Source: Tridacna crocea
Lineage: Eukaryota > Mollusca > Bivalvia > Cardiida > Cardiidae
Length of the DNA stretch: 64,000 nt
Direction: 5' to 3'
Assembly: GCA_943736015.1 (NCBI GenBank)
Contig: OX031072.1
Coordinates: 9,451,501-9,515,500 of the forward strand
In this document: in pieces, positions 33,812 to 64,000 of the stretch
How the letters are laid out: the number at the start of each line of letters is the position of its first letter
How positions within the stretch are numbered: the first letter of the stretch is position 1
The notes under the pieces: model-generated
Database searches by the model: none
What the model was told of the DNA's origin: nothing
The model's input: only the letters and a program-made list of their open reading frames with translations
Position numbers and translations under genes: made by a program

Positions 33812-36800
33812 GACTGCACAACAGCCTTAAAAGAAGACTTTAAATCCACTTTTATGCCTTTTTTTTCACTGTTTTTTATCGAGAAATTATGGCGCCATTT
33901 TGGAGCGATTTTGAAGCTCTCTGATTGGCTGTTGAATATCTGATTGGCTATTGGTTCCCATTCTGATTTGGCTCCTTGGTTCCCATTATGATTTCCTTAA
34001 AGCTTCTCTGATTGGATTATTTCAGAGAGAGAAGAGATTTGATTGGCTGATGGGAAGGGGGGAATATCTGTTTATTCTTAGTAACCTTTTACCACACAAT
34101 GACGTCTTTTAACACCCCTGAAAGAGAAGGCTTTTGAAAATAATCTGAGGAAAGGAGACAATGCAGGTTACCAGCATTTTCTCCTTTTCCCACAATGTTT
34201 ACTACCCTATCAAGAAAAAGTTGATTTTTAGTTCTTCTTACATCTTATTGTATCTTTATGGCCTACTTCTAAATTCATCAAACAAGAACAAGATTTTTTT
34301 ATCGGAAAAAGTTTCCGCAACAGCAAACGGTTGCTTCTGAATTTTATATTTTTGCGCAGCGATTAAACATAAAATTGACTTTTGACTCGCGCGGTCGTCA
34401 AAATTGGTTCAATGTTTTCGTGACCCTGGTAAGAAAACATGGAAAAACTTTGTTTACCTTTCATTTATTTGTTTAACAGGTATCAGTTGCCTCCGAAAGT
34501 GTCAAAGTTGATTTTACGATTTTATGCGCAGCACGTATCAGTCACGTATGGGTGAGATGGTCATCGTAACCAAATCATTGGCCCTAGTGAGAGAAAATGA
34601 AAAAGAAAAATAGAAAAATCCCTATAATTGACTTTAAGCAACAGTTGTCATCTGCTATAAAATATATTCCGTAAGTCGATTCTGCATGTTTTCGCGGGTA
34701 TGTAACTGGCACCTGCGAGACAATAGACAACCTAAATGGGTTTGTCGTCACGGTAAAAAAAGACTTGAGAAGTAAAAAACAGATATCAGAAATTAAGTTC
34801 CCTATATTTGATCCATTAAGCAACAGGTGTCATCTGCTATGAAGTGGTCCGTAAGTCGATTTTTCGCGTTTTCGCGGATACGTAACAGGAACCTATGAGA
34901 CGGTTGTCAACATAAATAGATTTGTCGTCATGGTATAAAGAGATTGGAGGAAAAAAATATACATTAAAAATTTTGTTCCATTTGTTTGATTTATGCAATA
35001 AGAAGCATTCAGTCTTTTTTTAGCCACTTGTCGCATTATTTTCTGGGGTTTTCGCATGAGCGTAACTGGCACATATGAGACGGTAGTCAACGTAACTGGG
35101 TTTCTTGTTGTGGTTTGAAGAGATTAGAAAAATTACACTTCAGTTGCCTTTGTTTGATATATGCAACAGGAAGCAACTAAAAGAGTTTTCAGTCTTTTTT
35201 TAGCCACTTGTCGCATTAATTTCTGGGGCTTTTTTACACTGTACATTGATCACTTTGGCTTATTGAAAGTTTCAATGTGCAGCATTTATTGTGGGCTGAG
35301 TTAGAAAAGCAAATCCAGTTAAGGGCTGGGGGGGGGTGCATCGAGGGTCTAAGGGAAGTAATTCTTGCAAGGGGCTTGAAAAGACCAAAACAAGGTCTGC
35401 TGCGCCCCTATTTTCTTGAATGTTTGGCCATTTTCAGTGAAATCTGGCATGTGTGGATGGTGCATGCCTAGCAATTCGCCAAGGACTGAACAACAGCCTT
35501 TAAAGAAGACTTTAAATCCACTTTTATGCCTTTTTTTTCACTGTTTTTTATCGAGAAATTATAGCGCCATTTTGGAGCGATTTTGAAGCTCTCTGATTGG
35601 CTGTTGAATATCTGATTGGCTATTGGTTCCCATTCTGATTTGGCTCCTTGGTTCCCATTCTGATTTCCTTAAAGCTTCTCTGATTGGATTATTTCAGAGA
35701 GAGAAGAGATTTGATTCGCTGATGGGAAGGGGGGGGGGAATAGCTGTTTATTCTTATTAACCTTTTACCACACAATGACGCCTTTTAACACCCCTGAAAG
35801 AGAAGGCTTTTGAAAATAATCTGAGGAAAGGAGACAATGCAGGTTACCAGCATTTTCTCCTTTTCCCACAATGTTTACTACCCTATCAAAGAAAAAGTTG
35901 ATTTTTAGTTATTCTTACATCTTATTGTATCTTTATGGCCTACTTCTAAATTCTTCAAACAAGAACAAGATTTTTTTATTGGAAAAAGTTTCCGCAACAG
36001 CAAATGGTTGCTTCTGAATTTTATATTTTTGCGCAGCGATTAAACATAAAATTGACTTTTGACTCGCGCGGTCGTCAAAATTGGTTCAATGTTTCCGTGA
36101 CCCTGGTACGAAAACAGAGAAAAACTTTGTTAACCTTTCTTTGATTTGTTTAACAGGTATCAGTTGCCTCCGAAAGTGTCAAAGTTGATTTTACGATTTT
36201 ATGCGCAGCACGTATCAGTCACATATGGGTGAGATGGTCATCGTAACCAAATCATTGGCCCTAGTGAGAGAAAATGAAAAAGAAAAATAGAAAAATCCCT
36301 ATAATTGACTTTAAGCAACAGTTGTCGTCTGCTATAAAATATATTCCGTAAGTCAATTTGCATGTTTTCGCCGGTATGTAACCGGCACCTGTGAGACAAT
36401 AGACAACCTAAATGGGTTTGTCGTCACGGTAAAAAAAGACTTGAGAAGTAAAAAACAGATATCAGAAATTAAGTTCCCTATATTTGATCCATTAAGCAAC
36501 AGGTGTCATCTGCTATGAAGTGGTCCGTAAGTCGATTTTTCGCGTTTTCGCGGATACGTAACCGGAACCTATGAGACAGCTGTCAACATAAATAGATTTG
36601 TCGTCATGGTATAAAGAGATTGGAGGAAAAAAATATACATTAAAAAATTTGTTCCATTTGTTTGATTTATGCAATAAGAAGCATTCAGTCTTTTTTTAGC
36701 CACTTGTCGCATTATTTTCTGGGGTTTTCGCATGAGCCTAACTGGCACATATGAGACGGTAGTCAACGTAACTGGGTTTCTTGTTGTGGTTTGAAGAGAT

Positions 36801-39800
36801 TAGAAAAATTACACTTCAGTTGCCTTTGTTTGATATATGCAACAGGAAGCAACTAAAAGAGTTTTCAGTCTTTTTTTAGCCACTTGTCGCATTAATTTCT
36901 GGGGCTTTTTTATACTGTACATTGATCACTTTGGCTTATTGAAAGTTTCAATGTGCAGCATTTATTGTGGGCTGAGTTAGAAAAGCAAATCCAGTTTAGG
37001 GCTGGGGGGGTGCATCGAGGGTCTAAGGGAAGTAATTCTTGCAAGGGGCTTGAAAAGACCAAAACAAGGTCTGCTGCGCCCCTATTTTCTTAAATGTTTG
37101 GCCATTTTCAGTGAAATCTGGCATGTGTGGATAGTGCATGCCTGGCAGTTCGCCAAGGACTGCACAACAGCCTTTAAAGAAGACTTTAAATCCACTTTTA
37201 TGTCCTTTCTTTCACTGTTTGTTATCGAGAAATTATGGCGCCATTTTGGAGCGATTTTGAAGGTCTCTGATTGGCTGTTGAATATCTGATTGGCTATTGG
37301 TTCCCATTCTGATTTGGCTCCTTGGTTCCCATTCTGATTTCCTTAAAGCTTCTCTGATTGGATTATTTCAGAGAGAGAAGAGATTTGATTCGCTGATGGG
37401 AAGGGGGGGGGGAATAGCTGTTTATTCTTATTAACCTTTTACCACACAATGACGCCTTTTAACACCCCTGAAAGAGAAGGCTTTTGAAAATAATCTGAGG
37501 AAAGGAGACAATGCAGGTTACCAGCATTTTCTCCTTTTCCCACAATGTTTACTACCCTATCAAAGAAAAAGGTGATTTTTAGTTATTCTTACATCTTATT
37601 GTATCTTTATGGCCTACTTCTAAATTCTTCAAACAAGAACAAGATTTTTTTATCGGAAAAAGTTTCCGCAACAGCAAATGGTTGCTTCTGAATTTTATAT
37701 TTTTTCACAGCGATTAAACATAAAATTGACTTTTGACTCGCGCAGTCGTCAAAATTGGTTCAATGTTTTCGTGACCCTGGTAAGAAAACAGGGAAAAACT
37801 TTGTTTACCTTTCTTTGATTTGTTTAACAGGTATCAGTTGCCTCCGAAAGTGTCAAAGTTGATTTTACGATTTTATGCGCAGCACGTATCAGTCACGTAT
37901 GGGTGAGATGGTCATCGTAACCAAATCATTGGCCCTAGTGAGAGAAAATGAAAAAGAAAAATAGAAAAATCCCTATAATTGACTTTAAGCAACAGTTGTC
38001 GTCTGCTATAAAATATATTCCGTAATTCGATTTTGCATGTTTTCGCGGGTATGTAACCGGAACCTGCGAGACAGTAGACAACCTAAATGGGTTTGTCGTC
38101 ACGGTAAAAAAAGACTTGAGAAGTAAAAAACAGATATCAGAAATTAAGTTCCCTATATTTGATCCATTAAGCAACAGGTGTCATCTGCTATGAAGTGGTC
38201 CGTAAGTCGATTTTTCGCGTTTTCGCGGATACGTAACCGGAACCTATGAGACAGCTGTCAACATAAATGGATTTGTCGTCATGGTATAAAGAGATTGGAG
38301 GAAAAAAATATACATTAAAAATTTTGTTCCATTTGTTTGATTTATGCAATAAGAAGCATTCAGTCTTTTTTTAGCCACTTGTCGCATTATTTTCTGGGGT
38401 TTTCGCATGAGCGTAACTGGCACATATGAGACGGTAGTCAACGTAACTGGGTTTCTTGTTGTGGTTTGAAGAGATTAGAAAAATTACACTTCAGTTGCCT
38501 TTGTTTGATATATGCAACAGGAAGCAACTAAAAGAGTTTTCAGTCTTTTTTTAGCCACTTGTCGCATTAATTTCTGGGGCTTTTTTACACTGTACATTGA
38601 TCACTTTGGCTTATTGAAAGTTTCAATGTGCAGCATTTATTGTGGGCTGAGTTAGAAAAGCAAATCCAGTTAAGGGCTGGGGGGGGTGCATCGAGGGTCT
38701 AAGGGAAGTAATTCTTGCAAGGGGCTTGAAAAGACCAAAACAAGGTCTGCTGCGCCCCTATTGTCTTAAATGTTTGGCCATTTTCAGTGAAATCTGGCAT
38801 GTGTGGATGGTGCATGCCTGGCAGTTCGCCAAGGACTGCACAACAGCCTTTAAAGAAGACTTTAAATCCACTTTTATGCCTTTTTTTTCACTGTTTTTTA
38901 TCGAGAAATTATGGCGCCATTTTGGAGCGATTTTGAAGCTCTCTGATTGGCTGTTGAATATCTGATTGGCTATTGGTTCCCATTCTGATTTGGCTCCTTG
39001 GTTCCCATTCTGATTTCCTTAAAGCTTCTCTGATTGGATAATTTCAGAGAGAGAAGAGATTTGATTGGCTGATGGGAAGGGGGGGGGGAATAGCTGTTTA
39101 TTCTTATTAACCTTTTACTACACAATGACGCCTTTTAACACCCCTGAAAGAGAAGGCTTTTGAAAATAATCTGCGGAAAGGAGACAATGCAGGTTACCAG
39201 CATTTTCTCCTTTTCCCACAATGTTTACTACCCTATCAAAGAAAAAGTTGATTTTTAGTTATTCTTACATCTTATTGTATCTTTATGGCCTACTTCTAAA
39301 TTCTTCAAACAAGAACAAGATTTTTTTATCGGAAAAGTTTCCGCAACAGCAAACGGTTGCTTCTGAATTTTATATTTTTGCGCAGCGATTAAACATAAAA
39401 TTGACTTTTGACTCGCGCGGTCGTCAAAATTGGTTCAATGTTTTCGTGACCCTGGTAAGAAAACAGGGAAAAACTTTGTTTACCTTTCATTTATTTGTTT
39501 AACAGGTATCAGTTGCCTCCGAAAGTGTCAAAGTTGATTTTACGATTTTATGCGCAGCACGTATCAGTCACGTATGGGTGAGATGGTCATCGTAACCAAA
39601 TCATTGGCCCTAGTGAGAGAAAATGAAAAAGAAAAATAGAAAAATCCCTATAATTGACTTTAAGCAACAGTTGTCGTCTGCTATAAAATATATTCCGTAA
39701 GTCAATTTTGCATGTTTTCGCGGGTATGTAACCGGCAACTGCGAGACAATAGACAACCTAAATGGGTTTGTCGTCACGGTAAAAAAAGACTTGAGAAGTA

Positions 39801-42800
39801 AAAAACAGATATCAGAAATTAAGTTCCCTATATTTGATCCATTAAGCAACAGGTGTCATCTGCTATGAAGTGGTCTGTAAGTCGATTTTTCGCGTTTTTG
39901 CGGATACGTAACCGGAACCTATGAGACGGTTGTCAACATAAATAGATTTGTCGTCATGGTATAAAGAGATTGGCGGAAAAAAATATACATTAAAAATTTT
40001 GTTCCATTTGTTTGATTTATGCAATAAGAAGCATTCAGTCTTTTTTTAGCCACTTGTCGCATTATTTTCTGGGGTTTTCGCATGAGCGTAACTGGCACAT
40101 ATGAGACGGTAGTCAACGTAACTGGGTTTCTTGTTGTGGTTTGAAGAGATTAGAAAAATTACACTTCAGTTGCCTTTGTTTGATATATGCAACAGGAAGC
40201 AACTAAAAGAGTTTTCAGTCTTTTTTTAGCCACTTGTCGCATTAATTTCTGGGGCTTTTTTACACTGTACATTGATCACTTTGGCTTATTGAAAGTTTCA
40301 ATGTGCAGCATTTATTGTGGGCTGAGTTAGAAAAGCAAATCCAGTTAAGGGCTGGGGGGATGCATCGAGGGTCTAAGGGAAGTAATTCTTGCAAGGGGCT
40401 TGAAAAGACCAAAACAAGGTCTGCTGCGCCTCTATTTTCTTAAATGTTTGGCCATTTTAAGTGAAATCTGGCATGTGTGGATGGTGCATGCCTGGCAGTT
40501 CGCCAAGAACTGCACAACAGCCTTTAAAGAAGACTTTAAATCCACTTTTATGTCCTTTTTTTCACTGTTTTTTATCGAGAAATTATGGCGCCATTTTGGA
40601 GCGATTTTGAAGCTCTCTGATTGGCTGTTGAATATCTGATTGGCTATTGGTTCCCATTCTGATTTGGCTCCTTGGTTCCCATTCTGATTTCCTTAAAGCT
40701 TCTCTGATTGGATAATTTCAGAGAGAGAAGAGATTTGATTCGCTGATGGGAAGGGGGGGGAATAGCTGTTTATTCTTATTAACCCTTTACCACACAATGA
40801 CGCCTTTTAACACCCCTGAAAGAGAAGGCTTTTGAAAATGATCTGAGGAAAGGAGACAATGCAAGTTACCAGCATTTTCTCCTTTTCCCACAATGTTTAC
40901 TACCCTATCAAAGAAAAAGTTGATTTTTAGTTATTCTTACATCTTATTGTATCTTTATGGCCTACTTCTAAATTCTTCAAACAAGAACAAGATCTTTTTA
41001 TCGGAAAAAGTTTCCGCAACAGCAAACGGTTGCTTCTGAATTTTATATTTTTGCGCACCGATTAAACATAAAATTGACTTTTGACTCGCGCGGTCGTCAA
41101 AATTGGTTCAATGTTTTCGTGACCCTGGTAAGAAAACAGGGAAAAACTTTGTTTACCTTTCTTTGATTTGTTTAACAGGTATCAGTTGCCTCCGAAAGTG
41201 TCAAAGTTGATTTTACGATTTTATGCGCAGCACGTATCAGTCACATATGGGTGAGATGGTCATCGTAACCAAATCATTGGCCCTAGTGAGAGAAAATGAA
41301 AAAGAAAAATAGAAAAATCCCTATAATTGACTTTAAGCAACAGTTGTCGTCTGCTATAAAATATATTCCGTAAGTCGATTTTGCATGTTTTCGCGGGTAT
41401 GTAACCGGCACCTGCGAGACAATAGACAACCTAAATGGGTTTGTCGTCACGGTAAAAAAAGACTTGAGAAGTAAAAAACAGATATCAGAAATTAAGTTCC
41501 CTATATTTGATCCATTAAGCAACAGGTGTCATCTGCTATGAAGTGGTCTGTAAGTCGATTTTTCGCGTTTTCGCGGATACGTAACCAGAACCTATGAGAC
41601 GGTTGTCAACATAAATAGATTTGTCGTCATGGTATAAAGAGATTGGAGGAAAAAAATATACATTAAAAATTTTGTTCCATTTGTTTGATTTATGCAATAA
41701 GAAGCATTCAGTCTTTTTTTAGCCACTTGTCGCATTATTTTCTGGGGTTTTCGCATGAGCGTAACTGGCACATATGAGACGGTAGTCAACGTAACTGGGT
41801 TTCTTGTTGTGGTTTGAAGATATTAGAAAAATTACACTTCAGTTGCCTTTGATTGATATATGCAACAGGAAGCAACTAAAAGAGTTTTCAGTCTTTTTTT
41901 AGCCACTTGTCGCATTAATTTCTGGGGCTTTTTTACACTGTACATTGATCACTTTGGCTTATTGAAAGTTTCAATGTGCAGCATTTATTGTGGGCTGAGT
42001 TAGAAAAGCAAATCCAGTTAAGGGCTGGGGGGGTGCATCGAGGGTCTAAGGGAAGTAATTCTTGCAAGGGACTTGAAAAGACCAAAACAAGGTCTGCTGC
42101 GCCCCTATTTTCTTAAATGTTTGGCCATTTTCAGTGAAATCTGGCATGTGTGGATGGTGCATGCCTGGCAGTTCGCCAAGGACTGCACAACAGCCTTTAA
42201 AGAAGACTTTAAATCCACTTTTATGCCTTTTTTTTCACTGTTTTTTATCGAGAAATTATGGCGCCATTTTGGAGCGATTTTGAAGCTCTCTGATTGGCTG
42301 TTGAATATCTGATTGGCTATTGGTTCCCATTCTGATTTGGCTCCTTGGTTCCCATTCTGATTTCCTTAAAGCTTCTCTGATTGGATAATTTCAGAGAGAG
42401 AAGAGATTTGATTGGCTGATGGGAAGGGGGGGGAATAGCTGTTTATTCTTATTAACCTTTTACCACACAATGACGCCTTTTAACACCCCTGGCTTTCGAA
42501 AATAATCTGAGGAAAGGAGACAATGCAGGTTACCAGCATTTTCTCCTTTTCCCACAATGTTTACTACCCTATCAAAGAAAAAGTTGATTTTTAGTTATTC
42601 TTACATCTTATTGTATCTTTATGGCCTACTTCTAAATTCTTCAAACAAGAACAAGATTTTTTTATCGGAAAAAGTTTCCGCAACAGCAAACGGTTGCTTC
42701 TGAATTTTATATTTTTGCGCAGCGATTAAACATAAAATTGACTTTTGACTCGCGCGGTCACAAAATTGGTTGAATGTTTTCGTGACCCTGGTAAGAAAAC

Positions 42801-45800
42801 AGGGAAAAACTTTGTTTACCTTTCTTTGATTTGTTTAACAGGTATCAGTTGCCTCTGAAAGTGTCAAAATTGATTTTACGATTTTATGCGCAGCACGTAT
42901 CAGTCACATATGGGTGAGATGGTCATCGTAACCAAATCATTGGCCCTAGTGAGAGAAAATGAAAAAGAAAAATAGAAAAATCCCTATAATTGACTTTAAG
43001 CAACAGTTGTCGTCTGCTATAAAATATATTCCGTAAGTCGATTTTGCATGTTTTCGCGGGTATGTAACCGGCACCTGCGAGACAATAGACAACCTAAATG
43101 GGTTTGTCGTCACGGTAAAAAAAAACTTGAGAAGTAAAAAACAGATATCAGAAATTAAGTTCCCTATATTTGATCCATTAAGCAACAGGTGTCATCTGCT
43201 ATGAAGTGGTCCGTAAGTCGATTTTTCGCGTTTTCGCGGATACGTAACCGGAACCTATGAGACGGTTGTCAACATAAATAGATTTGTCGTCATGGTATAA
43301 AGAGATTGGAGGAAAAAAATATACATTAAAAATTTTGTTCCATTTGTTTGATTTATGCAATAAGAAGCATTCAGTCTTTTTTTAGCCACTTGTCGCATTA
43401 TTTTCTGGGGTTTTCGCATGAGCGTAACTGGCACATATGAGACGGTAGTCAACGTAACTGGGTTTCTTGTTGTGGTTTGAAGATATTAGAAAAATTACAC
43501 TTCAGTTGCCTTTGTTTGATATATGCAACAGGAAGCAAGTAAAAGAGTTTTCAGTCTTTTTTTAGCCACTTGTCGCATTAATTTCTGGGGCTTTTTTACA
43601 CTGTACATTGATCACTTTGGCTTATTGAAAGTTTCAATGTGCAGCATTTATTGTGGGCTGAGTTAGAAAAGCAAATCCAGTTAAGGGCTGGGGGGGTGCA
43701 TCGAGGGTCTAAGGGAAGTAATTCTTGCAAGGGGCTTGAAAAGACCAAAACAAGGTCTGCTGCGCCCCTATTTTCTTAAATGTTTGGCCATTTTCAGTGA
43801 AATCTGGCATGTGTGGATGGTGCATGCCTGGCAGTTCGCCAAGGACTGCACAACAGCCTTTAAAGAAGACTTTAAATCCACTTTTATGCCTTTTTTTTCA
43901 CTGTTTTTTATCGAGAAATTATGGCGCCATTTTGGAGCGATTTTGAAGCTCTCTGATTGGCTGTTGAATATCTGATTGGCTATTGGTTCCCATTCTGATT
44001 TGGCTCCTTGGTTCCCATTCTGATTTCCTTAAAGCTTCTCTGATTGGATAATTTCAGAGAGAGAAGAGATTTGATTGGCTGATGGGAAGGGGGGGAATAG
44101 CTGTTTATTCTTATTAACCTTTTACCACACAATGACGCCTTTTAACACCCCTGAAAGAGAAGGCTTTTGAAAATAATCTGAGGAAAGGAGACAATGCAGG
44201 TTACCAGCATTTTCTCCTTTTCCCACAATGTTTACTACCCTATCAAAGAAAAAGTTGATTTTTAGTTATTCTTACATCTTATTGTATCTTTATGGCCTAC
44301 TTCTAAATTCTTCAAACAAGAACAAGATTTTTTTATCGGAAAAAGTTTCCGCAACAGCAAACGGTTGCTTCTGAATTTTATATTTTTGCGCAGCGATTAA
44401 ACATAAAATTGACTTTTGACTCGCGCGGTCGTCAAAATTGGTTGAATGTTTTTGTGACCCTGGTAAGAAAACAGGGAAAAACTTTGTTTACCTTTCTTTG
44501 ATTTGTTTAACAGGTATCAGTTGCCTCCGAAAGTGTCAAAGTTGATTTTACGATTTTATGCGCAGCACGTATCAGTCACATATGGGTGAGATGGTCATCG
44601 TAACCAAATCATTGGCCCTAGTGAGAGAAAATGAAAAAGAAAAATAGAAAAATCCCTATAATTGACTTTAAGCAACAGTTGTCGTCTGCTATAAAATATA
44701 TTCCGTAAGTCGATTTTGCATGTTTTCGCGGGTATGTAACCGGCACCTGCGAGACAATAGACAACCTAAATGGGTTTGTCGTCACGGTAAAAAAAGACTT
44801 GAGAAGTAAAAAACAGATATCAGAAATTAAGTTCCCTATATTTGATCCATTAAGCAACAGGTGTCATCTGCTATGAAGTGGTCCGTAAGTCGATTTTTCG
44901 CGTTTTCGCGGATACGTAACCGGAACCTATGAGACGGTTGTCAACATAAATAGATTTGTCGTCATGGTATAAAGAGATTGGAGGAAAAAAATATACATTA
45001 AAAATTTTGTTCCATTTGTTTGATTTATGCAATAAGAAGCATTCAGTCTTTTTTTAGCCACTTGTCGCATTATTTTCTGGGGTTTTCGCATGAGCGTAAC
45101 TGGCACATATGAGACGGTAGTCAACGTAACTGGGTTTCTTGTTGTGGTTTGAAGAGATTAGAAAAATTACACTTCAGTTGCCTTTGTTTGATATATGCAA
45201 CAGGAAGCAAGTAAAAGAGTTTTCAGTCTTTTTTTAGCCACTTGTCGCATTAATTTCTGGGGCTTTTTTACACTGTACATTGATCACTTTGGCTTATTGA
45301 AAGTTTCAATGTGCAGCATTTATTGTGGGCTGAGTTAGAAAAGCAAATCCAGTTAAGGGCTGGGGGGGGTGCATCGAGGGTCTAAGGGAAGTAATTCTTG
45401 CAAGGTGCTTGAAAAGACCAAAACAAGGTCTGCTGCGCCCCTATTTTCTTAAATGTTTGGCCATTTTCAGTGAAATCTGGCATGTGTGGATGGTGCATGC
45501 CTGGCAGTTCGCCAAGGACTGCACAACAGCCTTTAAAGAAGACTTTAAATCCACTTTTATGCCTTTTTTTTCACTGTTTTTTATCGAGAAATTATGGCGC
45601 CATTTTGGAGCGATTTTGAAGCTCTCTGACTGGCTGTTGAATATCTGATTGGCTATTGGTTCCCATTCTGATTTGGCTCCTTGGTTCCCATTCTGATTTC
45701 CTTAAAGCTTCTCTGATTGGATAATTTCAGAGAGAGAAGAGATTTGATTGGCTGATGGGAAGGGGGGGGGGAATAGCTGTTTATTCTTATTAACCTTTTA

Positions 45801-48800: not shown

Positions 48801-48975
48801 AATGTTTGGCCATTTTCAGTGAAATCTGGCATGTGTGGATGGTGCATGCCTGGCAGTTCGCCAAGGACTGCACAACAGCCTTTAAAGAAGACTTTAAATC
48901 CACTTTTATGCCTTTTTTTTCACTGTTTTTTATCGAGAAATTATGGCGCCATTTTGGAGCGATTTTGAAGCTCTC

Positions 48976-49105: not shown

Positions 49106-49137
49106 GGGAAGGGGGGGGAAATAGCTGTTTATTCTTA

Positions 49138-49290: not shown

Positions 49291-49579
49291 TATTCTTACA
49301 TCTTATTGTATCTTTATGGCCTACTTCTAAATTCTTCAAACAAGAACAAGATTTTTTTATCGGAAAAAGTTTCCGCAACAGCAAACGGTTGCTTCTGAAT
49401 TTTATATTTTTGCGCAGCGATTAAACATAAAATTGACTTTTGACTCGCGCGGTCGTCAAAATTGGTTCAATGTTTTCGTGACCCTGGTAAGAAAACAGGG
49501 AAAAACTTTGTTTACCTTTCTTTGATTTGTTTAACAGGTATCAGTTGCCTCCGAAAGTGTCAAAGTTGATTTTACGATT

Positions 49580-50330
49580 TTATGCGCAGCACGTATCAGT
49601 CACATATGGGTGAGATGGTCATCGTAACCAAATCATTGGCCCTAGTGAGAGAAAATGAAAAAGAAAAATAGAAAAATCCCTATAATTGACTTTAAGCAAC
49701 AGTTGTCGTCTGCTATAAAATATATTCCGTAAGTCGATTTTGCATGTTTTCGCGGGTATGTAACCGGCACCTGCGAGACAATAGACAACCTAAATGGGTT
49801 TGTCGTCACGGTAAAAAAAGACTTGAGAAGTAAAAAACAGATATCAGAAATTAAGTTCCCTATATTTGATCCATTAAGCAACAGGTGTCATCTGCTATGA
49901 AGTGGTCCGTAAGTCGATTTTTCGCGTTTTCGCGGATACGTAACCTGAACCTATGAGACGGTTGTCAACATAAATAGATTTGTCGTCATGGTATAAAGAG
50001 ATTGGAGGAAAAAAATATACATTAAAAATTTTGTTCCATTTGTTTGATTTATGCAATAAGAAGCATTCAGTCTTTTTTTAGCCACTTGTCGCATTATTTT
50101 CTGGGGTTTTCGCATGAGCGTAACTGGCACATATGAGACGGTAGTCAACGTAACTGGGTTTCTTGTTGTGGTTTGAAGAGATTGAAAAATTACACTTCAG
50201 TTGCCTTTGTTTGATATATGCAACAGGAAGCAACTAAAAGAGTTTTCAGTCTTTTTTTAGCCACTTGTCGCATTAATTTCTAGGGCTTTTTTACACTGTA
50301 CATTGATCACTTTGGCTTATTGAAAGTTTC
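49580..50330 (+). repeat. ~180-bp degenerate sub-repeats inside the monomer
   Basis: Anchors 'TATGTAACCGGCACCTGCGA' (49757), 'TACGTAACCTGAACCTATGA' (49937) and 'GCGTAACTGGCACATATGAG' (50118) are 180 bp apart. A weaker copy lies about 170 bp before (CGTATCAGTCACATATGG, 49591) and a partial one after (GTCGCATTAATTTC...). 'TTTAGCCACTTGTCGCATTA' occurs twice, 180 bp apart. Confidence 0.65.
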
Positions 50331-53300
50331 AATGTGCAGCATTTATTGTGGGCTGAGTTAGAAAAGCAAATCCAGTTAAGGGCTGGGGGGTGCATCGAGG
50401 GTCTAAGGGAAGTAATTCTTGCAAGGGGCTTGAAAAGACCAAAACAAGGTCTGCTGCGCCCCTATTTTCTTAAATGTTTGGCCATTTTCAGTGAAATCTG
50501 GCATGTGTGGATGGTGCATGCCTGGCACTTCGCCAAGGACTGCACAACAGCCTTTAAAGAAGACTTTAAATCCACTTTTATGCCTTTTTTTTCACTGTTT
50601 TTTATCGAGAAATTATGGCGCCATTTTGGAGCGATTTTGAAGCTCTCTGATTGGCTGTTGAATATCTGATTGGCTATTGGTTCCCATTCTGATTTGGCTC
50701 CTTGGTTCCCATTCTGATTTCCTTAAAGCTTCTCTGATTGGATAATTTCAGAGAGAGAAGAGATTTGATTGGCTGATGGGAAGGGGGGGAATAGCTGTTT
50801 ATTCTTATTAACCTTTTACCACACAATGACGCCTTTTAACACCCCTGAAAGAGAAGGCTTTTGAAAATAATCTGAGGAAAGGAGACAATGCAGGTTACCA
50901 GCATTTTCTCCTTTTCCCACAATGTTTACTACCCTATCAAAGAAAAAGTTGATTTTTAGTTATTCTTACATCTTATTGTATCTTTATGGCCTACTTCTAA
51001 ATTCTTCAAACTAGAACAAGATTTCTTTATCGGAAAAAGTTTCCGCAACAGCAAACGGTTGCTTCTGAATTTTATATTTTTGCACAGCGATTAAACATAA
51101 AATTGACTTTTGACTCGCGTGGTCGTCAAAATTGGTTCAATGTTTTCGTGACCCTGGTAAGAAAACAGGGAAAAACTTTGTTTACCTTTCTTTGATTTGT
51201 TTAACAGGTATCAGTTGCCTCCGAAAGTGTCAAAGTTGATTTTACGATTTTATGCGCAGCACGTATCAGTCACGTATGGGTGAGATGGTCATCGTAACCA
51301 AATCATTGGCCCTAGTGAGAGAAAATGAAAAAGAAAAATAGAAAAATCCCTAGAATTGACTTTAAGCAACAGTTGTCGTCTGCTATAAAATATATTCCGT
51401 AAGTCGATTTTGCATGTTTTCGCGGGTATGTAACCGGCACCTGCGAGACAATAGACAACCTAAATGGGTTTGTCGTCACGGTAAAAAAAGACTTGAGAAG
51501 TAAAAAACAGATATCAGAAATTAAGTTCCCTATATTTGATCCATTAAGCAACAGGTGTCATCTGCTATGAAGTGGTCCGTAAGTCGATTTTTCGCGTTTT
51601 CGCGGATACGTAACCGGAACCTTTGAGACGGTTGTCAACATAAATAGATTTGTCGTCATGGTATAAAGAGATTGGAGGAAAAAAATATACATTAAAAATT
51701 TTGTTCCATTTGTTTGATTTATGCAATAAGAAGCATTCAGTCTTTTTTTAGCCACTTGTCGCATTATTTTCTGGGGTTTTCGCATGAGCGTAACTGGCAC
51801 ATATGAGACGGTAGTCAACGTAACTGGGTTTCTTGTTGTGGTTTGAAGAGATTAGAAAAATTACACTTCAGTTGCCTTTGTTTGATATATGCAACAGGAA
51901 GCAAGTAAAAGAGTTTTCAGTCTTTTTTTAGCCACTTGTCGCATTAATTTCTGGGGCTTTTTTACACTGTACATTGATCACTTTGGCTTATTGAAAGTTT
52001 CAATGTGCAGCATTTATTGTGGGCTGAGTTAGAAAAGCAAATCCAGTTAAGGGCTTGGGGGGTGCATCGAGGGTCTAAGGGAAGTAATTCTTGCAAGGGG
52101 CTTGAAAAGACCAAAACAAGGTCTGCTGCGCCCCTATTTTCTTAAATGTTTGGCCATTTTCAGTGAAATCTGGCATGTGTGGATGGTGCATGCCTGGCAG
52201 TTCGCCAAGGACTGCACAACAGCCTTTAAAGAAGATTTTAAATCCACTTTTATGCCTTTTTTTTCACTGTTTTTTATCGAGAAATTATGGCGCCATTTTG
52301 GAGCGATTTTGAAGCTCTCTGATTGGCTGTTGAATATCTGATTGGCTATTGGTTCCCATTCTGATTTGGCTCCTTGGTTCCCATTCTGATTTCCTTAAAG
52401 CTTCTCTGATTGGATAATTTCAGAGAGAGAAGAGATTTGATTGGCTGATGGGAAGGGGGGGGAATAGCTGTTTATTCTTATTAACCTTTTACCACACAAT
52501 GACGCCTTTTAACACCCCTGAAAGAGAAGGCTTTTGAAAATAATCTGAGGAAAGGAGACAATGCAGGTTACCAGCATTTTCTCCTTTTCCCACAATGTTT
52601 ACTACCCTATCAAAGAAAAAGTTGATTTTTAGTTATTCTTACATCTTATTGTATCTTTATGGCCTACTTCTAAATTCTTCAAACAAGAACAAGATTTTTT
52701 TATCGGAAAAAGTTTCCGCAACAGCAAACGGTTGCTTCTGAATTTTATATTTTTGCGCAGCGATTAAACATAAAATTGACTTTTGACTCACGCGGTCGTC
52801 AAAATTGGTTCAATGTTTTCGTGACCCTGGTAAGAAAACAGGGAAAAACTTTGTTTACCTTTCTTTGATTTGTTTAACAGGTATCAGTTGCCTCCGAAAG
52901 TGTCAAAGTTGATTTTACGATTTTATGCGCAGCACGTATCAGTCACATATGGGTGAGATGGTCATCGTAACCAAATCTTTGGCCCTAGTGGGAGAAAATG
53001 AAAAAGAAAAATAGAAAAATCCCTAGAATTGACTTTAAGCAACAGTTGTTGTCTGCTATAAAATATATTCCGTAAGTCGATTTTGCATGTTTTCGCAGGT
53101 ATGTAACCGGCACCTGCGAGACAATAGACAACCTAAATGGGTTTGTCGTCACGGTAAAAAAAGACTTGAGAAGTAAAAAACAGATATCAGAAATTAAGTT
53201 CCCTATATTTGATCCATTAAGCAACAGGTGCCATCTGCTATGAAGTGGTCCGTAAGTCGATTTTTCGCGTTTTCGCGGATACGTAACCGGAACCTATGAG

Positions 53301-56300
53301 ACGGTTGTCAACATAAATAGATTTGTCGTCATGGTATAAAGAGATTGGAGGAAAAAAATATACATCAAAAATTTTGTTCCATTTGTTTGATTTATGCAAT
53401 AAGAAGCATTCAGTCTTTTTTTAGCCACTTGTCGCATTATTTTCTGGGGTTTTCGCATGAGCGTAACTGGCACATATGAGACGGTAGTCAACGTAACAGG
53501 GTTTCTTGTTGTGGTTTGAAGAGATTAGAAAAATTACACTTCAGTTGCCTTTGTTTGATATATGCAACAGGAAGCAACTAAAAGAGTTTTCAGTCTTTTT
53601 TTAGCCACTTGTCGCATTAATTTCTGGGGCTTTTTTACACTGTACATTGATCACTTTGGCTTATTGAAAGTTTCAATGTGCAGCATTTATTGTGGGCTGA
53701 GTTAGAAAAGCAAATCCAGTTAAGGGCTGGGGGGGTGCATCGAGGGTCTAGGGGAAGTAATTCTTGCAAGGGACTTGAAAAGACCAAAACAAGGTCTGCT
53801 GCGCCCCTATTTTCTTAAATGTTTGGCCATTTTCAGTGAAATCTGGCATGTGTGGATGGTGCATGCCTGGCAGTTCGCCAAGGACTGCACAACAGCCTTT
53901 AAAGAAGACTTTAAATCCACTTTTATGCCTTTTTTTCCACTGTTTTTTATCGAGAAATTATGGCGCCATTTTGGAGCGATTTTGAAGCTCTCTGATTGGC
54001 TGTTGAATATCTGATTGGCTATTGGTTCCCATTCTGATTTGGCTCCTTGGTTCCCATTCTGATTTCCTTACAGCTTCTCTGATTGGATATTTTCAGAGAG
54101 AGAAGAGATTTGATTGGCTGATGGGAAGGGGGGGGAATAGCTGTTTATTCTTATTAACCTTTTACCACACAATGACGCCTTTTAACACCCCTGAAAGAAA
54201 AGGCTTTTGAAAATAATCTGAGGAAAGGAGACAATGCAGGTTACCAGCATTTTCTCCTTTTCCCACAATGTTTATTACCCTATCAAAGAAAAAGTTGATT
54301 TTTAGTTACTCTTACATCTTATTGTATCTTTATGGCCTACTTCTAAATTCTTCAAACAAGAACAAGATTTTTTTATCGGAAAAAGTTTCCGCAACAGCGA
54401 ACGGTTGCTTCTGAATTTTATATTTTTGCACAGCGATTAAACATAAAATTGACTTTTGACTCACGCGGTCGTCAAAATTGGTTCAATGTTTTCGTGACCC
54501 TGGTAAGAAAACAGGGAAAAACTTTGTTTACCTTTCTTTGATTTGTTTAACAGGTATCAGTTGCCTCCGAAAGTGTCAAAGTTGATTTTACGATTTTATG
54601 CGCAGCACGTATCAGTCACATATGGGTGAGATGGTCATCGTAACCAATTTTTTGGCCGTAGTGGGAGAAAATGAAAAAGAAAAATAGAAAAATCCCTATA
54701 ATTGACTTTAAGCAACAGTTGTCGTCTGCTATAAAATATATTCCGTAAGTCGATTTTGCATGTTTTCGCGGGTATGTAACCGGCACCTGCGAGACAATAG
54801 ACAACCTAAATGGGTTTGTCGTCACGGTAAAAAAAGACTTGAGAAGTAAAAAACAGATATCAGAAATTAAGTTCCCTATATTTGATCCATTAAGCAACAG
54901 GTGCCATCTGCTATGAAGTGGTCCGTAAGTCGATTTTTCGCGTTTTCGCGGATACGTAACCGGACCCTATGAGACGGTTGTCAACATAAATAGATTTGTC
55001 GTCATGGTATAAAGAGATTGGAGGAAAAAAATATACATCAAAAATTTTGTTCCATTTGTTTGATTTATGCAATAAGAAGCATTCAGTCTTTTTTTAGCCA
55101 CTTGTCACATTATTTTCTGGGGTTTTCGCATGAGCGTAACTGGCACATATGAGACGGTAGTCAACGTAACTGGGTTTCTTGTTGTGGTTTGAAGAGATTA
55201 GAAAAATTACACTGCAGTTGCCTTTGTTTGATATATGCAACAGGAAGCAACTAAAAGAGTTTTCAGTCTTTTTTTAGCCACTTGTCGCATTAATTTCTGG
55301 GGCTTTTTTACACTGTACATTGATCACTTTGGCTTATTGAAAGTTTCAGTGTGCAGCATTTATTGTGGGCTGAGTTAGAAAAGCAAATCCAGTTAAGGGC
55401 TTGGGGGGTGCATCGAGGGTCTAAGGGAAGTAATTCTTGCAAGGGGCTTGAAAAGACCAAAACAAGGTCTGCTGCGCCCCTATTTTCTTAAATGTTTGGC
55501 CATTTTCAGTGAAATCTGGCATGTGTGGATGGTGCATGCCTGGCAGTTCGCCAAGGACTGCACAACAGCCTTTAAAGAAGACTTTAAATCCACTTTTATG
55601 CCTTTTTTTTCACTGTTTTTTATCGAGAAATTATGGCGCCATTTTGGAGCGATTTTGAAGCTCTCTGATTGGCTGTTGAATATCTGATTGGCTATTGGTT
55701 CCCATTCTGATTTGGCTCCTTGGTTCCCATTCTGATTTCCTTAAAGCTTCTCTGATTGGATAATTTCAGAGAGAGAAGAGATTTGATTGGCTGATGGGAA
55801 GGGGGGGGAATAGCTGTTTATTCTTATTAACCTTTTACCACACAATGACGCCTTTTAACACCCCTGAAAGAGAAGGCTTTTGAAAATAATCTGAGGAAAG
55901 GAGACAATGCAGGTTACCAGCATTTTCTCCTTTTCCCACAATGTTTACTACCCTATCAAAGAAAAAGTTGATTTTTAGTTATTCTTACATCTTATTGTAT
56001 CTTTATGGCCTACTTCTAAATTCTTCAAACAAGAACAAGATTTTTTTATCGGAAAAAGTTTCCGCAACAGCAAACGGTTGCTTCTGAATTTTATATTTTT
56101 GCGCAGCGATTAAACATAAAATTGACTTTTGACTCATGCGGTCGTCAAAATTGGTTCAATGTTTTCGTGACCCTGGTAAGAAAACAGGGAAAAACTTTGT
56201 TTACCTTTCTTTGATTTGTTTAACAGGTATCAGTTGCCTCCGAAAGTGTCAAAGTTGATTTTACGATTTTATGCGCAGCACGTATCAGTCACATATGGGT

Positions 56301-59300
56301 GAGATGGTCATCGTAACCAAATCTTTGGCCCTAGTGGGAGAAAATGAAAAAGAAAAATAGAAAAATCCCTATAATTGACTTTAAGCAACAGTTGTCGTCT
56401 GGTATAAAATATATTCCATAAGTCGATTTTGCATGTTTTCGCGGGTATGTAACCGGCACCTGCGAGACAATAGACAACCTAAATGGGTTTGTCATCACGG
56501 TAAAAAAAGACTTGAGAAGTAAAAAACAGATATCAGAAATTAAGTTCCCTATATTTGATCCATTAAGCAACAGGTGTCATCTGCTATGAAGTGGTCCGTA
56601 AGTCGATTTTTCGCGTTTTCGCGGATACGTAACCGGAACCTATGAGACGGTTGTCAACATAAATAGATTTGTCGTCATGGTATAAAGAGATTGGAGGAAA
56701 AAAATATACATTAAAAATTTTGTTCCATTTGTTTGATTTATGCAATAAGAAGCATTCAGTCTTTTTTTAGCCACTTGTCGCATTATTTTCTGGGGTTTTC
56801 GCATGAGCGTAACTGGCACATATGAGACGGTAGTCAACGTAACTGGGTTTCTTATTGTGGTTTGAAGATATTAGAAAAATTACACTTCAGTTGCCTTTGA
56901 TTGATATATGCAACAGGAAGCAACTAAAAGAGTTTTCAGTCTTTTTTTAGCCACTTGTCGCATTAATTTCTGGGGCTTTTTTACACTGTACATTGATCAC
57001 TTTGGCTTATTGAAAGTTTCAATGTGCAGCATTTATTGTGGGCTGAGTTAGAAAAGCAAATCCAGTTAAGGGCTGGGGGGGTGCATCGAGGGTCTAAGGG
57101 AAGTAATTCTTGCAAGGGACTTGAAAAGACCAAAACAAGGTCTGCTGCGCCCCTATTTTCTTAAATGTTTGGCCATTTTCAGTGAAATCTGGCATGTGTG
57201 GATGGTGCATGCCTGGCAGTTCGCCAAGGACTGCACAACAGCCTTTAAAGAAGACTTTAAATCCACTTTTATGCCTTTTTTTTCACTGTTTTTTATCGAG
57301 AAATTATGGCGCCATTTTGGAGCGATTTTGAAGCTCTCTGATTGGCTGTTGAATATCTGATTGGCTATTGGTTCCCATTCTGATTTGGCTCCTTGGTTCC
57401 CATTCTGATTTCCTTAAAGCTTCTCTGATTGGATAATTTCAGAGAGAGAAGAGATTTGATTGGCTGATGGGAAGGGGGGGGAATAGCTGTTTATTCTTAG
57501 TAACATTTTACCACACAATGACGCCTTTTAACATCCCTGAAAGAGAAGGCTTTTGAAAATAATCTGAGGAAAGGAGACAATGCAGGTTACCAGCATTTTC
57601 TCCTTTTCCCACAATGTTTACTACCCTATCAAAGAAAAAGTTGATTTTTAGTTATTCTTACATCTTATTGTATCTTTATGGCCTACTTCTAAATTCTTCA
57701 AACAAGAACAAGATTTTTTTATCGGAAAAAGTTTCCGCAACAGCAAACGGTTGCTTCTGAATTTTATATTTTTGCGCAGCGATTAAACATAAAATTGACT
57801 TTTGACTCACGCGGTCGTCAAAATTGGTTCAATGTTTTCGTGACCCTGGTAAGAAAACAGGGAAAAACTTTGTTTACCTTTCTTTGATTTGTTTAACAGG
57901 TATCAGTTGCCTCCGAAAGTGTCAAAGTTGATTTTACGATTTTATGCGCAGCACGTATCAGTCACATATGGGTGAGATGGTCATCGTAACCAAATCTTTG
58001 GCCCTAGTGGGAGAAAATGAAAAAGAAAAATAGAAAAATCCCTAGAATTGACTTTAAGCAACAGTTGTTGTCTGCTATAAAATATATTCCGTAAGTCGAT
58101 TTTGCATGTTTTCGCGGGTATGTAACCGGCACCTGCGAGACAATAGACAACCTAAATGGGTTTGTCGTCACGGTAAAAAAAGACTTGAGAAGTAAAAAAC
58201 AGATATCAGAAATTAAGTTCCCTATATTTGATCCATTAAGCAACAGGTGCCATCTGCTATGAAGTGGTCCGTAAGTCGATTTTTCGCGTTTTCGCGGATA
58301 CGTAACCGGAACCTATGAGACGGTTGTCAACATAAATAGATTTGTCGTCATGGTATAAAGAGATTGGAGGAAAAAAATATACATCAAAAATTTTGTTCCA
58401 TTTGTTTGATTTATGCAATAAGAAGCATTCAGTCTTTTTTTAGCCACTTGTCGCATTATTTTCTGGGGTTTTCGCATGAGCGTAACTGGCACATATGAGA
58501 CGGTAGTCAACGTAACTGGGTTTCTTGTTGTGGTTTGAAGAGATTAGAAAAATTACACTTCAGTTGCCTTTGTTTGATATATGCAACAGGAAGCAACTAA
58601 AAGAGTTTTCAGTCTTTTTTTAGCCACTTGTCGCATTAATTTCTGGGGCTTTTTTACACTGTACATTGATCACTTTGGCTTATTGAAAGTTTCAATGTGC
58701 AGCATTTATTGTGGGCTGAGTTAGAAAAGCAAATCCAGTTAAGGGCTGGGGGGGTGCATCGAGGGTCTAGGGGAAGTAATTCTTGCAAGGGACTTGAAAA
58801 GACCAAAACAAGGTCTGCTGCGCCCCTATTTTCTTAAATGTTTGGCCATTTTCAGTGAAATCTGGCATGTGTGGATGGTGCATGCCTGGCAGTTCGCCAA
58901 GGACTGCACAACAGCCTTTAAAGAAGACTTTAAATCCACTTTTATGCCTTTTTTTCCACTGTTTTTTATCGAGAAATTATGGCGCCATTTCGGAGCGATT
59001 TTGAAGCTCTCTGATTGGCTGTTGAATATCTGATTGGCTATTGGTTCCCATTCTGATTTGGCTCCTTGGTTCCCATTCTGATTTCCTTACAGCTTCTCTG
59101 ATTGGATATTTTCAGAGAGAGAAGAGATTTGATTGGCTGATGGGAAGGGGGGGAATAGCTGTTTATTCTTATTAACCTTTTACCACACAATGACGCCTTT
59201 TAACACCCCTGAAAGAAAAGGCTTTTGAAAATAATCTGAGGAAAGGAGACAATGCAGGTTACCAGCATTTTCTCCTTTTCCCACAATGTTTATTACCCTA

Positions 59301-62300
59301 TCAAAGAAAAAGTTGATTTTTAGTTACTCTTACATCTTATTGTATCTTTATGGCCTACTTCTAAATTCTTCAAACAAGAACAAGATTTTTTTATCGGAAA
59401 AAGTTTCCGCAACAGCAAACGGTTGCTTCTGAATTTTATATTTTTGCACAGCGATTAAACATAAAATTGACTTTTGACTCACGCGGTCGTCAAAATTGGT
59501 TCAATGTTTTCGTGACCCTGGTAAGAAAACAGGGAAAACTTTGTTTACCTTTCTTTGATTTGTTTAACAGGTATCAGTTGCCTCCGAAAGTGTCAAAGTT
59601 GATTTTACGATTTTATGCGCAGCACGTATCAGTCACATATGGGTGAGATGGTCATCGTAACCAATTTTTTGGCCCTAGTGGGAGAAAATGAAAAAGAAAA
59701 ATAGAAAAATCCCTATAATTGACTTTAAGCAACAGTTGTCGTCTGCTATAAAATATATTCCGTAAGTCGATTTTGCATGTTTTCGCGGGTATGTAACCGG
59801 CACCTGCGAGACAATAGACAACCTAAATGGGTTTGTCGTCACGGTAAAAAAAGACTTGAGAAGTAAAAAACAGATATCAGAAATTAAGTTCCCTATATTT
59901 GATCCATTAAGCAACAGGTGCCATCTGCTATGAAGTGGTCCGTAAGTCGATTTTTCGCGTTTTCGCGGATACGTAACTGGACCCTATGAGACGGTTGTCA
60001 ACATAAATAGATTTGTCGTCATGGTATAAAGAGATTGGAGGAAAAAAATATACATCAAAAATTTTGTTCCATTTGTTTGATTTATGCAATAAGAAGCATT
60101 CAGTCTTTTTTTAGCCACTTGTCACATTATTTTCTGGGGTTTTCGCATGAGCGTAACTGGCACATATGAGACGGTAGTCAACGTAACTGGGTTTCTTGTT
60201 GTGGTTTGAAGAGATTAGAAAAATTACACTGCAGTTGCCTTTGTTTGATATATGCAACAGGAAGCAACTAAAAGAGTTTTCAGTCTTTTTTTAGCCACTT
60301 GTCGCATTAATTTCTGGGGCTTTTTTACACTGTACATTGATCACTTTGGCTTATTGAAAGTTTCAGTGTGCAGCATTTATTGTGGGCTGAGTTAGAAAAG
60401 CAAATCCAGTTAAGGGCTTGGGGGGTGCATCGAGGGTCTAAGGGAAGTAATTCTTGCAAGGGGCTTGAAAAGACCAAAACAAGGTCTGCTGCGCCCCTAT
60501 TTTCTTAAATGTTTGGCCATTTTCAGTGAAATCTGGCATGTGTGGATGGTGCATGCCTGGCAGTTCGCCAAGGACTGCACAACAGCCTTTAAAGAAGACT
60601 TTTAATCCATTTTTATGCCTTTTTTTTCACTGTTTTTTATCGAGAAATTATGGCGCCATTTTGGAGCGATTTTGAAGCTCTCTGATTGGCTGTTGAATAT
60701 CTGATTGGCTATTGGTTCCCATTCTGATTTGGCTCCTTGGTTCCCATTCTGATTTCCTTAAAGCTTCTCTGATTGGATAATTTCAGAGAGAGAAGAGATT
60801 TGATTGGCTGATGGGAAGGGGGGGGAATAGCTGTTTATTCTTATTAACCTTTTACCACACAATGACGCCTTTTAACACCCCTGAAAGAGAAGGCTTTTGA
60901 AAATAATCTGAGGAAAGGAGACAATGCAGGTTACCAGCATTTTCTCCTTTTCCCACAATGTTTACTACCCTATCAAAGAAAAAGTTGATTTTTAGTTATT
61001 CTTACATCTTATTGTATCTTTATGGCCTACTTCTAAATTCTTCAAACAAGAACAAGATTTTTTTATCGGAAAAAGTTTCCGCAACAGCAAACGGTTGCTT
61101 CTGAATTTTATATTTTTGCGCAGCGATTAAACATAAAATTGACTTTTGACTCACGCGGTCGTCAAAATTGGTTCAATGTTTTCGTGACCCTGGTAAGAAA
61201 ACAGGGAAAAACTTTGTTTACCTTTCTTTGATTTGTTTAACAGGTATCAGTTGCCTCCGAAAGTGTCAAAGTTGATTTTACGATTTTATGCGCAGCACGT
61301 ATCAGTCACATATGGGTGAGATGGTCATCGTAACCAAATCTTTGGCCCTAGTGGGAGAAAATGAAAAAGAAAAATAGAAAAATCCCTATAATTGACTTTA
61401 AGCAACAGTTGTTGTCTGCTATAAAATATATTCCATAAGTCGATTTTGCATGTTTTCGCGGGTATGTAACCGGCACCTGCGAGACAATAGACAACCTAAA
61501 TGGGTTTGTCGTCACGGTAAAAAAAGACTTGAGAAGTAAAAAACAGATATCAGAAATTAAGTTCCCTATATTTGATCCATTAAGCAACAGGTGACATCTG
61601 CTATGAAGTGGTCCGTAAGTCGATTTTTCGCGTTTTCGCGGATACGTAACCGGAACCTATGAGACGGTTGTCAACATAAATAGATTTGTCGTCATGGTAT
61701 AAAGAGATTGGAGGAAAAAAATATACATCAAAAATTTTGTTCCATTTGTTTGATTTATGCAATAAGAAGCATTCAGTCTTTTTTTAGCCACTTGTCGCAT
61801 TATTTTCTGGGGTTTTCGCATGAGCGTAACTGGCACATATGAGACGGTAGTCAACGTAACTGGGTTTCTTGTTGTGGTTTGAAGAGATTAGAAAAATTAC
61901 ACTTCAGTTGCCTTTGTTTGATATATGCAACAGGAAGCAACTAAAAGAGTTTTCAGTCTTTTTTTAGCCACTTGTCGCATTAATTTCTGGGGCTTTTTTA
62001 CACTGTACATTGATCACTTTGGCTTATTGAAAGTTTCAGTGTGCAGCATTTATTGTGGGCTGAGTTAGAAAAGCAAATCCAGTTAAGGGCTTGGGGGGTG
62101 CATCGAGGGTCTAAGGGAAGTAATTCTTGCAAGGGGCTTGAAAAGACCAAAACAAGGTCTGCTGCGCCCCTATTTTCTTAAATGTTTGGCCATTTTCAGT
62201 GAAATCTGGCATGTGTGGATGGTGCATGCCTGGCAGTTCGCCAAGGACTGCACAACAGCCTTTAAAGAAGACTTTAAATCCACTTTTATGCCTTTTTTTT

Positions 62301-64000
62301 CACTGTTTTTTATCGAGAAATTATGGCGCCATTTTGGAGCGATTTTGAAGCTCTCTGATTGGCTGTTGAATATCTGATTGGCTATTGGTTCCCATTCTGA
62401 TTTGGCTCCTTGGTTCCCATTCTGATTTCCTTACAGCTTCTCTGATTGGATAATTTCAGAGAGAGAAGAGATTTGATTGGCTGATGGGAAGGGGGGGAAT
62501 AGCTGTTTATTCTTATTAACCTTTTACCACACAATGACGCCTTTTAACACCCCTGAAAGAGAAGGCTTTTGAAAATAATCTGAGGAAAGGAGACAATGCA
62601 GGTTACCAGCATTTTCTCCTTTTCCCACAATGTTTACTACCCTATCAAAGAAAAAGTTGATTTTTAGTTATTCTTACATCTTATTGTATCTTTATGGCCT
62701 ACTTCTAAATTCTTCAAACAAGAACAAGATTTTTTTATCGGAAAAAGTTTCCGCAACAGCAAACGGTTGCTTCTGAATTTTATATTTTTGCGCAGCAATT
62801 AAACATAAAATTGACTTTTGACTCACGCGGTCGTCAAAATTGGTTCAATGTTTTCGTGACCCTGGTAAGAAAACAGGGAAAAACTTTGTTTACCTTTCTT
62901 TGATTTGTTTAACAGGTATCAGTTGCCTCCGAAAGTGTCAAAGTTGATTTTACGATTTTATGCGCAGCACGTATCAGTCACATATGGGTGAGATGGTCAT
63001 CGTAACCAAATCTTTGGCCCTAGTGGGAGAAAATGAAAAAGAAAAATAGAAAAATCCCTATAATTGACTTTAAGCAACAGTTGTCGTCTGCTATAAAATA
63101 TATTCCATAAGTCGATTTTGCATGTTTTCGCGGGTATGTAACCGGCACCTGCGAGACAATAGACAACCTAAATGGGTTTGTCGTCACGGTAAAAAAAGAC
63201 TTGAGAAGTAAAAAACAGATATCAGAAATTAAGTTCCCTATATTTGATCCATTAAGCAACAGGTGCCATCTGCTATGAAGTGGTCCGTAAGTCGATTTTT
63301 CGCGTTTTCGCGGATACGTAACCGGAACCTATGAGACAGTTGTCAACATAAATAGATTTGTCGTCATGGTATAAAGAGATTGGAGGAAAAAAATATACAT
63401 CAAAAATTTTGTTCCATTTGTTTGATTTATGCAATAAGAAGCATTCAGTCTTTTTTTAGCCACTTGTCACATTATTTTCTGGGGTTTTTGCATGAGCGTA
63501 ACTGGCACATATGAGACGGTAGTCAACGTAACTGGGTTTCTTGTTGTGGTTTGAAGAGATTAGAAAATTTACACTTCAGTTGCCTTTGTTTGATATATGC
63601 AACAGGAAGCAACTAAAAGAGTTTTCAGTCTTTTTTTAGCCACTTGTCGCATTAATTTCTGGGGCTTTTTTACACTGTACATTGATCACTTTGGCTTATT
63701 GAAAGTTTCAATGTGCAGCATTTATTGTGGGCTGAGTTAGAAAAGCAAATCCAGTTAAGGGCTGGGGGGGTGCATCGAGGGTCTAAGGGAAGTAATTCTT
63801 GCAAGGGGCTTGAAAAGACCAAAACAAGGTCTGCTGCGCCCCTATTTTCTTAAATGTTTGGCCATTTTCAGTGAAATCTGGCATGTGTGGATGGTGCATG
63901 CCTGGCAGTTCGCCAAGGACTGCACAACAGCCTTTAACGAAGACTTTAAATCCACTTTTATGCCTTTTTTTTCACTGTTTTTTATCGAGAAATTATGGCG

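Follow-up and report, generated by a model that had tools for sequence, protein, structure and literature searches.

A Long Composite Satellite Unit Carrying a Truncated TTAA MITE in a Half-Megabase Array of Tridacna crocea

The right-hand part of a 64,000-nucleotide stretch of the Tridacna crocea genome, here called the window, is filled by head-to-tail repeats of a unit more than 1.6 kb long that carries a piece of a mobile element. The locus raises the question of what kind of sequence builds such an array, and whether its unit has a function. The window corresponds to C17:9,451,501-9,515,500 in an assembly of 1.049 Gb and 31 contigs, and all results on the array are drawn from this one assembly. 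We conclude that the repeats very probably form a complex non-coding satellite family, macrosatellite-like in character and kept uniform through unequal exchange. As far as the sequence takes us, the family is a new example of an already known type of satellite, and any function would be one of chromatin or non-coding transcription, no coding role having been seen.

Extent and unit types of the array on C17

The tandem array occupies window positions 33812 to 64000 on the forward strand, where 33812 is its left edge and 64000 is the limit of the window and not the end of the array. Self-comparison in kb blocks gives a best offset of 1663-1676 from about 34 kb onward to the end of the window; ungapped identity at the unit offset reaches 0.98-0.99 in blocks free of indels and drops to 0.6-0.8 in blocks interrupted by one. 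Units were counted from a 29-base marker, present in 18 whole copies from 33891 to 62325 with a 19th beginning at 63997, and the window holds 18 complete units (the first from the marker at 33891) with partial ends.

The array was read through to C17:9,665,500, 150 kb past the window, and sampled beyond. Markers were found as far as C17:9,719,417, all eight samples from C17 9,720,001 to 10,002,000 (L031-L038) are array in the + orientation, and sample L054 contains the right edge at C17:10,005,170. Seven samples from C17 10,008,001 to 10,202,000 contain MITE copies only or no match. The distance from edge to edge is about 520 kb, and we infer that the array is continuous between samples. The first-pass annotation had described more than 30 kb of head-to-tail monomers of about 1,673 bp; these are real, and the array is larger than claimed.

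The first 179 kb contain 100 copies of the marker (87 exact and 13 each carrying a single change) in a single orientation, and the 99 intervals between them fall into two unit types of about 1,672 and 1,912 bp. Type A accounts for 56 intervals of 1,655-1,676 bp, and the other 43, of 1,736-3,491 bp, lie in a type-B part that is flanked on both sides by type A. Consensus A was built from 56 intervals of 1,640-1,680 bp and consensus B from 27 of 1,890-1,925 bp, the other 16 of 99 being excluded. The two types differ by gains and losses of blocks, and the blocks that they share are about 94% identical. Identity to the consensus of the same type is 0.977-0.998 for 98 of the 99 intervals, the 3,491-bp one having been dropped. 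The closest resemblance among 19 type-B intervals is between units six apart (mean 0.992, one pair 1.000), which form a six-unit higher-order repeat. A long head-to-tail array of near-identical units, as seen in the 99 intervals and the later samples, is a hallmark of satellite DNA.

It is scarcely credible that the array is an artefact of assembly. It was seen in one assembly alone, but its units differ from one another, the two unit types are arranged in ordered blocks, the array passes into other sequence at each of its C17 edges, and many marker loci are present in both orientations.

Composition of the unit and its captured MITE

The layout is represented by a type-A unit of 1,673 bp at window positions 52289-53961, on the forward strand and counted from the marker. 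The marker itself, GGCGCCATTTTGGAGCGATTTTGAAGCTC (52289-52317, annotated on the minus strand), reads on that strand as AAAATGGCGCC, which is YY1-like. Beyond it are a CCAAT cluster (52320-52444, minus strand), with GATTGG on the forward strand and the NF-Y-like CCAATC on the minus strand; a truncated TTAA MITE (52481-52641, forward strand), consisting of the left end and inner palindrome with the right terminal repeat unrecognisable; and imperfect 180-bp sub-repeats (53020-53633, forward strand). Three of the components named in the first-pass annotation were confirmed: the sub-repeats match at 71.5% identity (unit positions 731-1164 versus 911-1344), five ATTGG within 130 bp occurred in 0 of 2000 Markov sequences, and the MITE piece is present in 11 of 11 unit rows. 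These rows stand for nine loci, on C1 (two rows), C2, C4, C6 (two loci), C8, C10, C12 and C17 (consensus A and B), and are mutually related and not independent; L049 (C13) and L050, which are without a complete interval, are absent from them. The GC content of the array is 36-40%, and its CpG ratio, 0.73 against 0.61 in flank windows with a standard deviation of 0.26, is uninformative.

The unit appears to be non-coding, as is typical of a satellite. Frames of at least 90 aa from stop to stop vary among the 11 rows, the longest having 167 aa in one row and another row having none, and a Pfam scan of three unit ORFs gave no family. A tandem array of ribosomal, snRNA or histone genes, or the spacer of such an array, is disfavoured to the point of being extremely improbable. 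The long unit, promoter-like patch and sub-repeats do resemble an intergenic spacer, but none of 4227 Rfam families matched anywhere in the window at the gathering score, and 98 of 99 intervals, at 1.65-2.28 kb, are too short for rRNA genes, the remaining one being 3,491 bp. When two units were searched against Rfam at E up to 1, only a Brucella sRNA family was returned (E 0.02, 29 bits against 155), and this match, which lies over the MITE palindrome, was taken as chance. An rDNA spacer or a known transposon had been named beforehand as what would overturn the satellite reading; neither Rfam in the window nor Pfam in the unit ORFs gave anything credible of the kind.

The annotation had considered monomers of this length unusual, which is overstated in light of units above 1 kb reported in oysters and a mussel. 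According to the portions of PMC11136912 consulted, the longest oyster satellite units measure 8,637 bp in C. angulata and 2,421-2,823 bp in three further Crassostrea species, with most oyster satellites staying below 200 bp; those of PMC12818792 give units of 22-2,891 bp in Limnoperna fortunei, including a 1,783-bp family selected for FISH. As described there, these satellites are likewise tandem with some units of 1-3 kb, and many of the oyster ones are related to DNA transposons. Compared by description, the transposon-related oyster satellites are mostly Helitron central repeats, whereas here a fragment of a TTAA MITE is one block of a larger unit.

The MITE was characterized from 48 copies, each 100 bp or longer, in the 84 kb left flank, which yielded a 229-bp consensus (TTAACCC...GAGTTAA) whose inner palindrome spans 67 bp. 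Both ends are spanned by 39 of the 48 copies; of these, 29 start with TTAACCC and approximately half finish with GAGTTAA (counted by eye), and the dispersed copies are bounded by terminal inverted repeats that carry TTAA at either end. A separate genomic copy lies beyond the left array edge at window positions 33401-33629 on the minus strand, its far end being approximate. The element is extraordinarily abundant, with 152,335 exact occurrences of its 39-base palindrome core genome-wide, which would amount to about 3% of the genome were every core part of a full 229-bp copy. Its TTAA ends suggest that its source may be the piggyBac superfamily.

Within the unit, the MITE match starts at HMM position 1 or 2 and ends at 156-163 in all 11 rows (E 3e-25 to 1e-39), and the right half of the HMM alone found nothing significant in the unit rows (best E 0.57); no complete element is recognisable in the unit. 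The earlier claim that every monomer carries the same truncated copy holds for the shared truncation, but about 70% of the element is kept rather than half. The piece makes up about a tenth of the unit. A decayed but complete MITE was considered and found no firm support: although a permissive alignment extended as far as the other end, 43 of 1000 shuffles equalled its score, and in per-row tests of nine rows 18-355 of 1000 shuffles were as good (below 50 in two), in keeping with the poor right-half score. Two further copies match to element positions 181 and 141. The one that reaches 181 is an older copy at C17:7.37 Mb, and since it reaches so far, the right end may have been lost by decay.

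The position and truncation of the MITE piece are common to all 11 rows and nine loci, which suggests that the unit already held it when the family began to spread and that the element was captured once. The proposal that the unit was assembled from mobile pieces and then amplified is thus upheld for the tandem amplification of a unit that already held the truncated MITE. It found no support for the rest of the unit, where a blastn search of the unit against the 84 kb left flank (E 1e-5) gave matches in the MITE part only and Rfam and Pfam returned nothing credible. Satellites tied to MITEs are known, and those treated in the available parts of PMC9659126 (Xstir, miDNA4, D1100, HindIII and BIV160) resemble the present family in that respect; in those satellites the array derives from the MITE or its motif, whereas here the MITE is a minor block.

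Copies across the genome and the spread of the unit

A whole-assembly search, as proposed with the first-pass annotation but run with the 29-base marker, yielded 4,085 exact copies (1,651 forward, 2,434 reverse, and 0 for the reversed control), and searches with marker sequences indicate at least 26 places on 12 contigs. A second probe, a 55-base stretch from elsewhere in the unit, has 3,178 copies genome-wide, and at about 1.7 kb per unit we estimate the family at approximately 7 Mb, or 0.7% of the assembly. Clustering 45 representative marker positions at 250 kb gave at least 25 loci on 12 contigs, and C4:23.95-24.15 Mb is the additional place; the other contigs were reached via rarer marker variants and the locus counts are lower bounds. 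Eleven of the 26 places were read (the main C17 array and ten that were fetched), and the others rest on marker matches, some of them single. The C4 array, which extends from 23.95 to at least 24.15 Mb, is regular, with steps mostly of about 1,828 bp.

A 33-base piece of a block found only in type A, shared exactly by the C4 array, which came to light through it, has 450 exact copies, all of them on C4 among the matches listed, and a 46-mer of type B has 234 copies, all on C6 among the matches listed. The presence of the family in several places, the higher-order repeat and the local subfamilies are the pattern of concerted evolution that characterizes a satellite. Several loci lying far apart on C6, C8 and C12 argue against the family being strictly centromeric.

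The many separate loci, together with an isolated unit at C17:7.37 Mb, would also suit a tandemly amplified non-autonomous transposon, for instance of the Helentron type with central repeats, and the 180-bp sub-repeats of the unit fit such an element as well. In the portions of PMC7492417 consulted, bivalve HINEs have satellite-like central repeats, and HINE/pearl sub-repeats are of a similar length class to those found here; a related oyster satellite of about 165 bp is described in the corresponding parts of PMC11136912. We nevertheless consider this origin very unlikely. A Helentron or HINE should have constant ends, with subterminal repeats, a microsatellite and a 3' palindrome. The three array edges that were read lie at three different places in the unit (about A1595 at the C17 left edge, A1384 at the C17 right edge and A348 on C2), and the isolated unit, a rearranged and roughly single copy of about 1.57 kb beside a small inverted piece (L050), ends near A1007 and A794, matching none of them. 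The three ORFs carry no Pfam domain, and the array part of the window has no four-base microsatellite according to Tandem Repeats Finder, which separates it from the HINE/pearl elements as described. Beside the isolated unit, at about L050 1770-1900, the sequence resembles a LINE reverse transcriptase by eye.

A satellite is the preferred explanation, for which the following history can be proposed. The MITE would have been inserted into, or joined to, an ancestral unit, and its right end would then have decayed or been lost. Unequal exchange would have amplified the MITE-bearing unit, and copies would have arrived on other chromosomes, where divergence gave rise to local subfamilies, each kept uniform within its own array. 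Spread by another route may also have taken place, since the copy at C17:7.37 Mb shows that units occur singly. Homology between MITEs at the array edges was considered as a route of spread and rejected: the C2 edge falls at MITE position 158 but is followed by unrelated sequence, and the C17 right edge is about 20 bp from a genomic MITE but MITEs are dense there. With an assembled half-megabase array that has two types of unit, and with related units at numerous loci, the path from MITE capture through spread to local homogenization becomes traceable.

A promoter-like patch in most of the units compared

The first part of the unit raises the possibility of a function. In consensus A, ATTGG occurs at positions 34, 53, 60, 121 and 152, four times as GATTGG, and this CCAAT cluster is adjoined by GGCGCCATTTT, the minus strand of which is the YY1-like AAAATGGCGCC noted above. 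The CCAAT motif resembles that of NF-Y and its neighbor that of YY1. These features may constitute a minus-strand promoter in the units, with CCAAT boxes followed by a YY1-like start site, from which a non-coding RNA would set the chromatin state of the array, as in human DXZ4 and D4Z4. Such a function is compatible with the satellite reading and would add to it, although we regard it as unlikely.

The arrangement of the boxes offers some encouragement. Five ATTGG lie in about 120 bp next to the YY1-like motif, and at least three GATTGG are found in the first 180 bp of 10 of the 11 rows even though the lowest conservation of any 25-bp window in the unit (A51-75, 0.67) falls in this stretch; an entirely passive repeat would not have to keep them, although the rows are related to one another. 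Box gaps of 31 and 42-43 bp recur, and one box lies within a highly conserved window (A101-125, 0.977, compared to a usual 0.92). The 84 kb flank contains no 130-bp stretch in which ATTGG occurs more than twice on one strand. The same data also weigh against a promoter: the cluster lies partly in that least conserved stretch, gaps of 8, 19, 38, 67-68, 74 and 93 bp are found as well, L046 keeps one box, and row L047 has one CCAAT in the opposite orientation. The 11-base YY1-like word is missing from the 84 kb flank, but this is the chance expectation. The marker was rejected as a selected island (0.978), as the rows were found by means of the marker and are biased in this respect; A276-300, within the MITE, and A376-400 reach 0.985 and 0.984. 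Strand asymmetry, an indirect sign of transcription, is not clear among variants of the 56 type-A units (per base, C>T 0.168 versus G>A 0.163; A>G 0.052 versus T>C 0.052), and rarer classes are uneven on small counts, such as 7 C>G and 14 G>C.

A CTCF core was found, at up to two mismatches, in 0 of 11 rows, and a 14-mer two mismatches from it occurs in 5 of the 99 C17 units; a CTCF site in each unit, as in DXZ4, is not seen. According to the consulted parts of PMC3491370 and PMC3334996, DXZ4 and D4Z4 likewise have kb-long units, arrays of up to hundreds of kb and a promoter or promoter-like region per unit. Human DXZ4 monomers each show promoter activity (PMC3491370) and D4Z4 has two promoters with putative YY1 sites (PMC3334996), but mouse Dxz4 units are without promoter activity in the same portion of PMC3491370. 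D4Z4 as described carries the DUX4 gene, whereas no Pfam match was found here, and DXZ4 is GC-rich and binds CTCF, in contrast to the present AT-richer array with its scarce CTCF-like cores and many loci. A literature search found nothing linking satellite DNA, molluscs, macrosatellites and promoters.

Transcription from the unit is accordingly a possibility to which we give little weight. A broader and decidedly doubtful proposal is that some four thousand units would carry an NF-Y/YY1-type promoter, with boxes being restored at helical intervals (31 and 42-43 bp) as the intervening sequence changes, and that the arrays would be large domains of non-coding transcription or chromatin, a DXZ4-like system that arose independently. 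If the patch works, the family would allow transcription of a satellite from inside its own units to be tested.

Several other repeats and one gene-like frame were observed to the left of the array. Directly adjoining it, at window 30483-33128, are about 67 copies of a T-rich 39-bp repeat with a higher period of 158 bp. A 166-bp repeat forms three arrays (window 9913-10956, 25713-26922 and 27414-28032) that by eye belong to one family in both orientations. Approximately seven copies of a 156-bp repeat lie at window 22534-23923, with a GTCC microsatellite about 220 bp further on; oyster HINE elements pair such repeats with GTCY-type microsatellites in the parts of PMC7492417 consulted. Further left, 9050 to 7533 bases before the window starts, the minus strand of C17:9,442,450-9,443,967 holds an uninterrupted frame of 506 aa that matches nearly the whole Pfam AA_permease_2 profile (E 3e-52), and because the uninterrupted match spans nearly the whole profile the frame is apparently intronless there.
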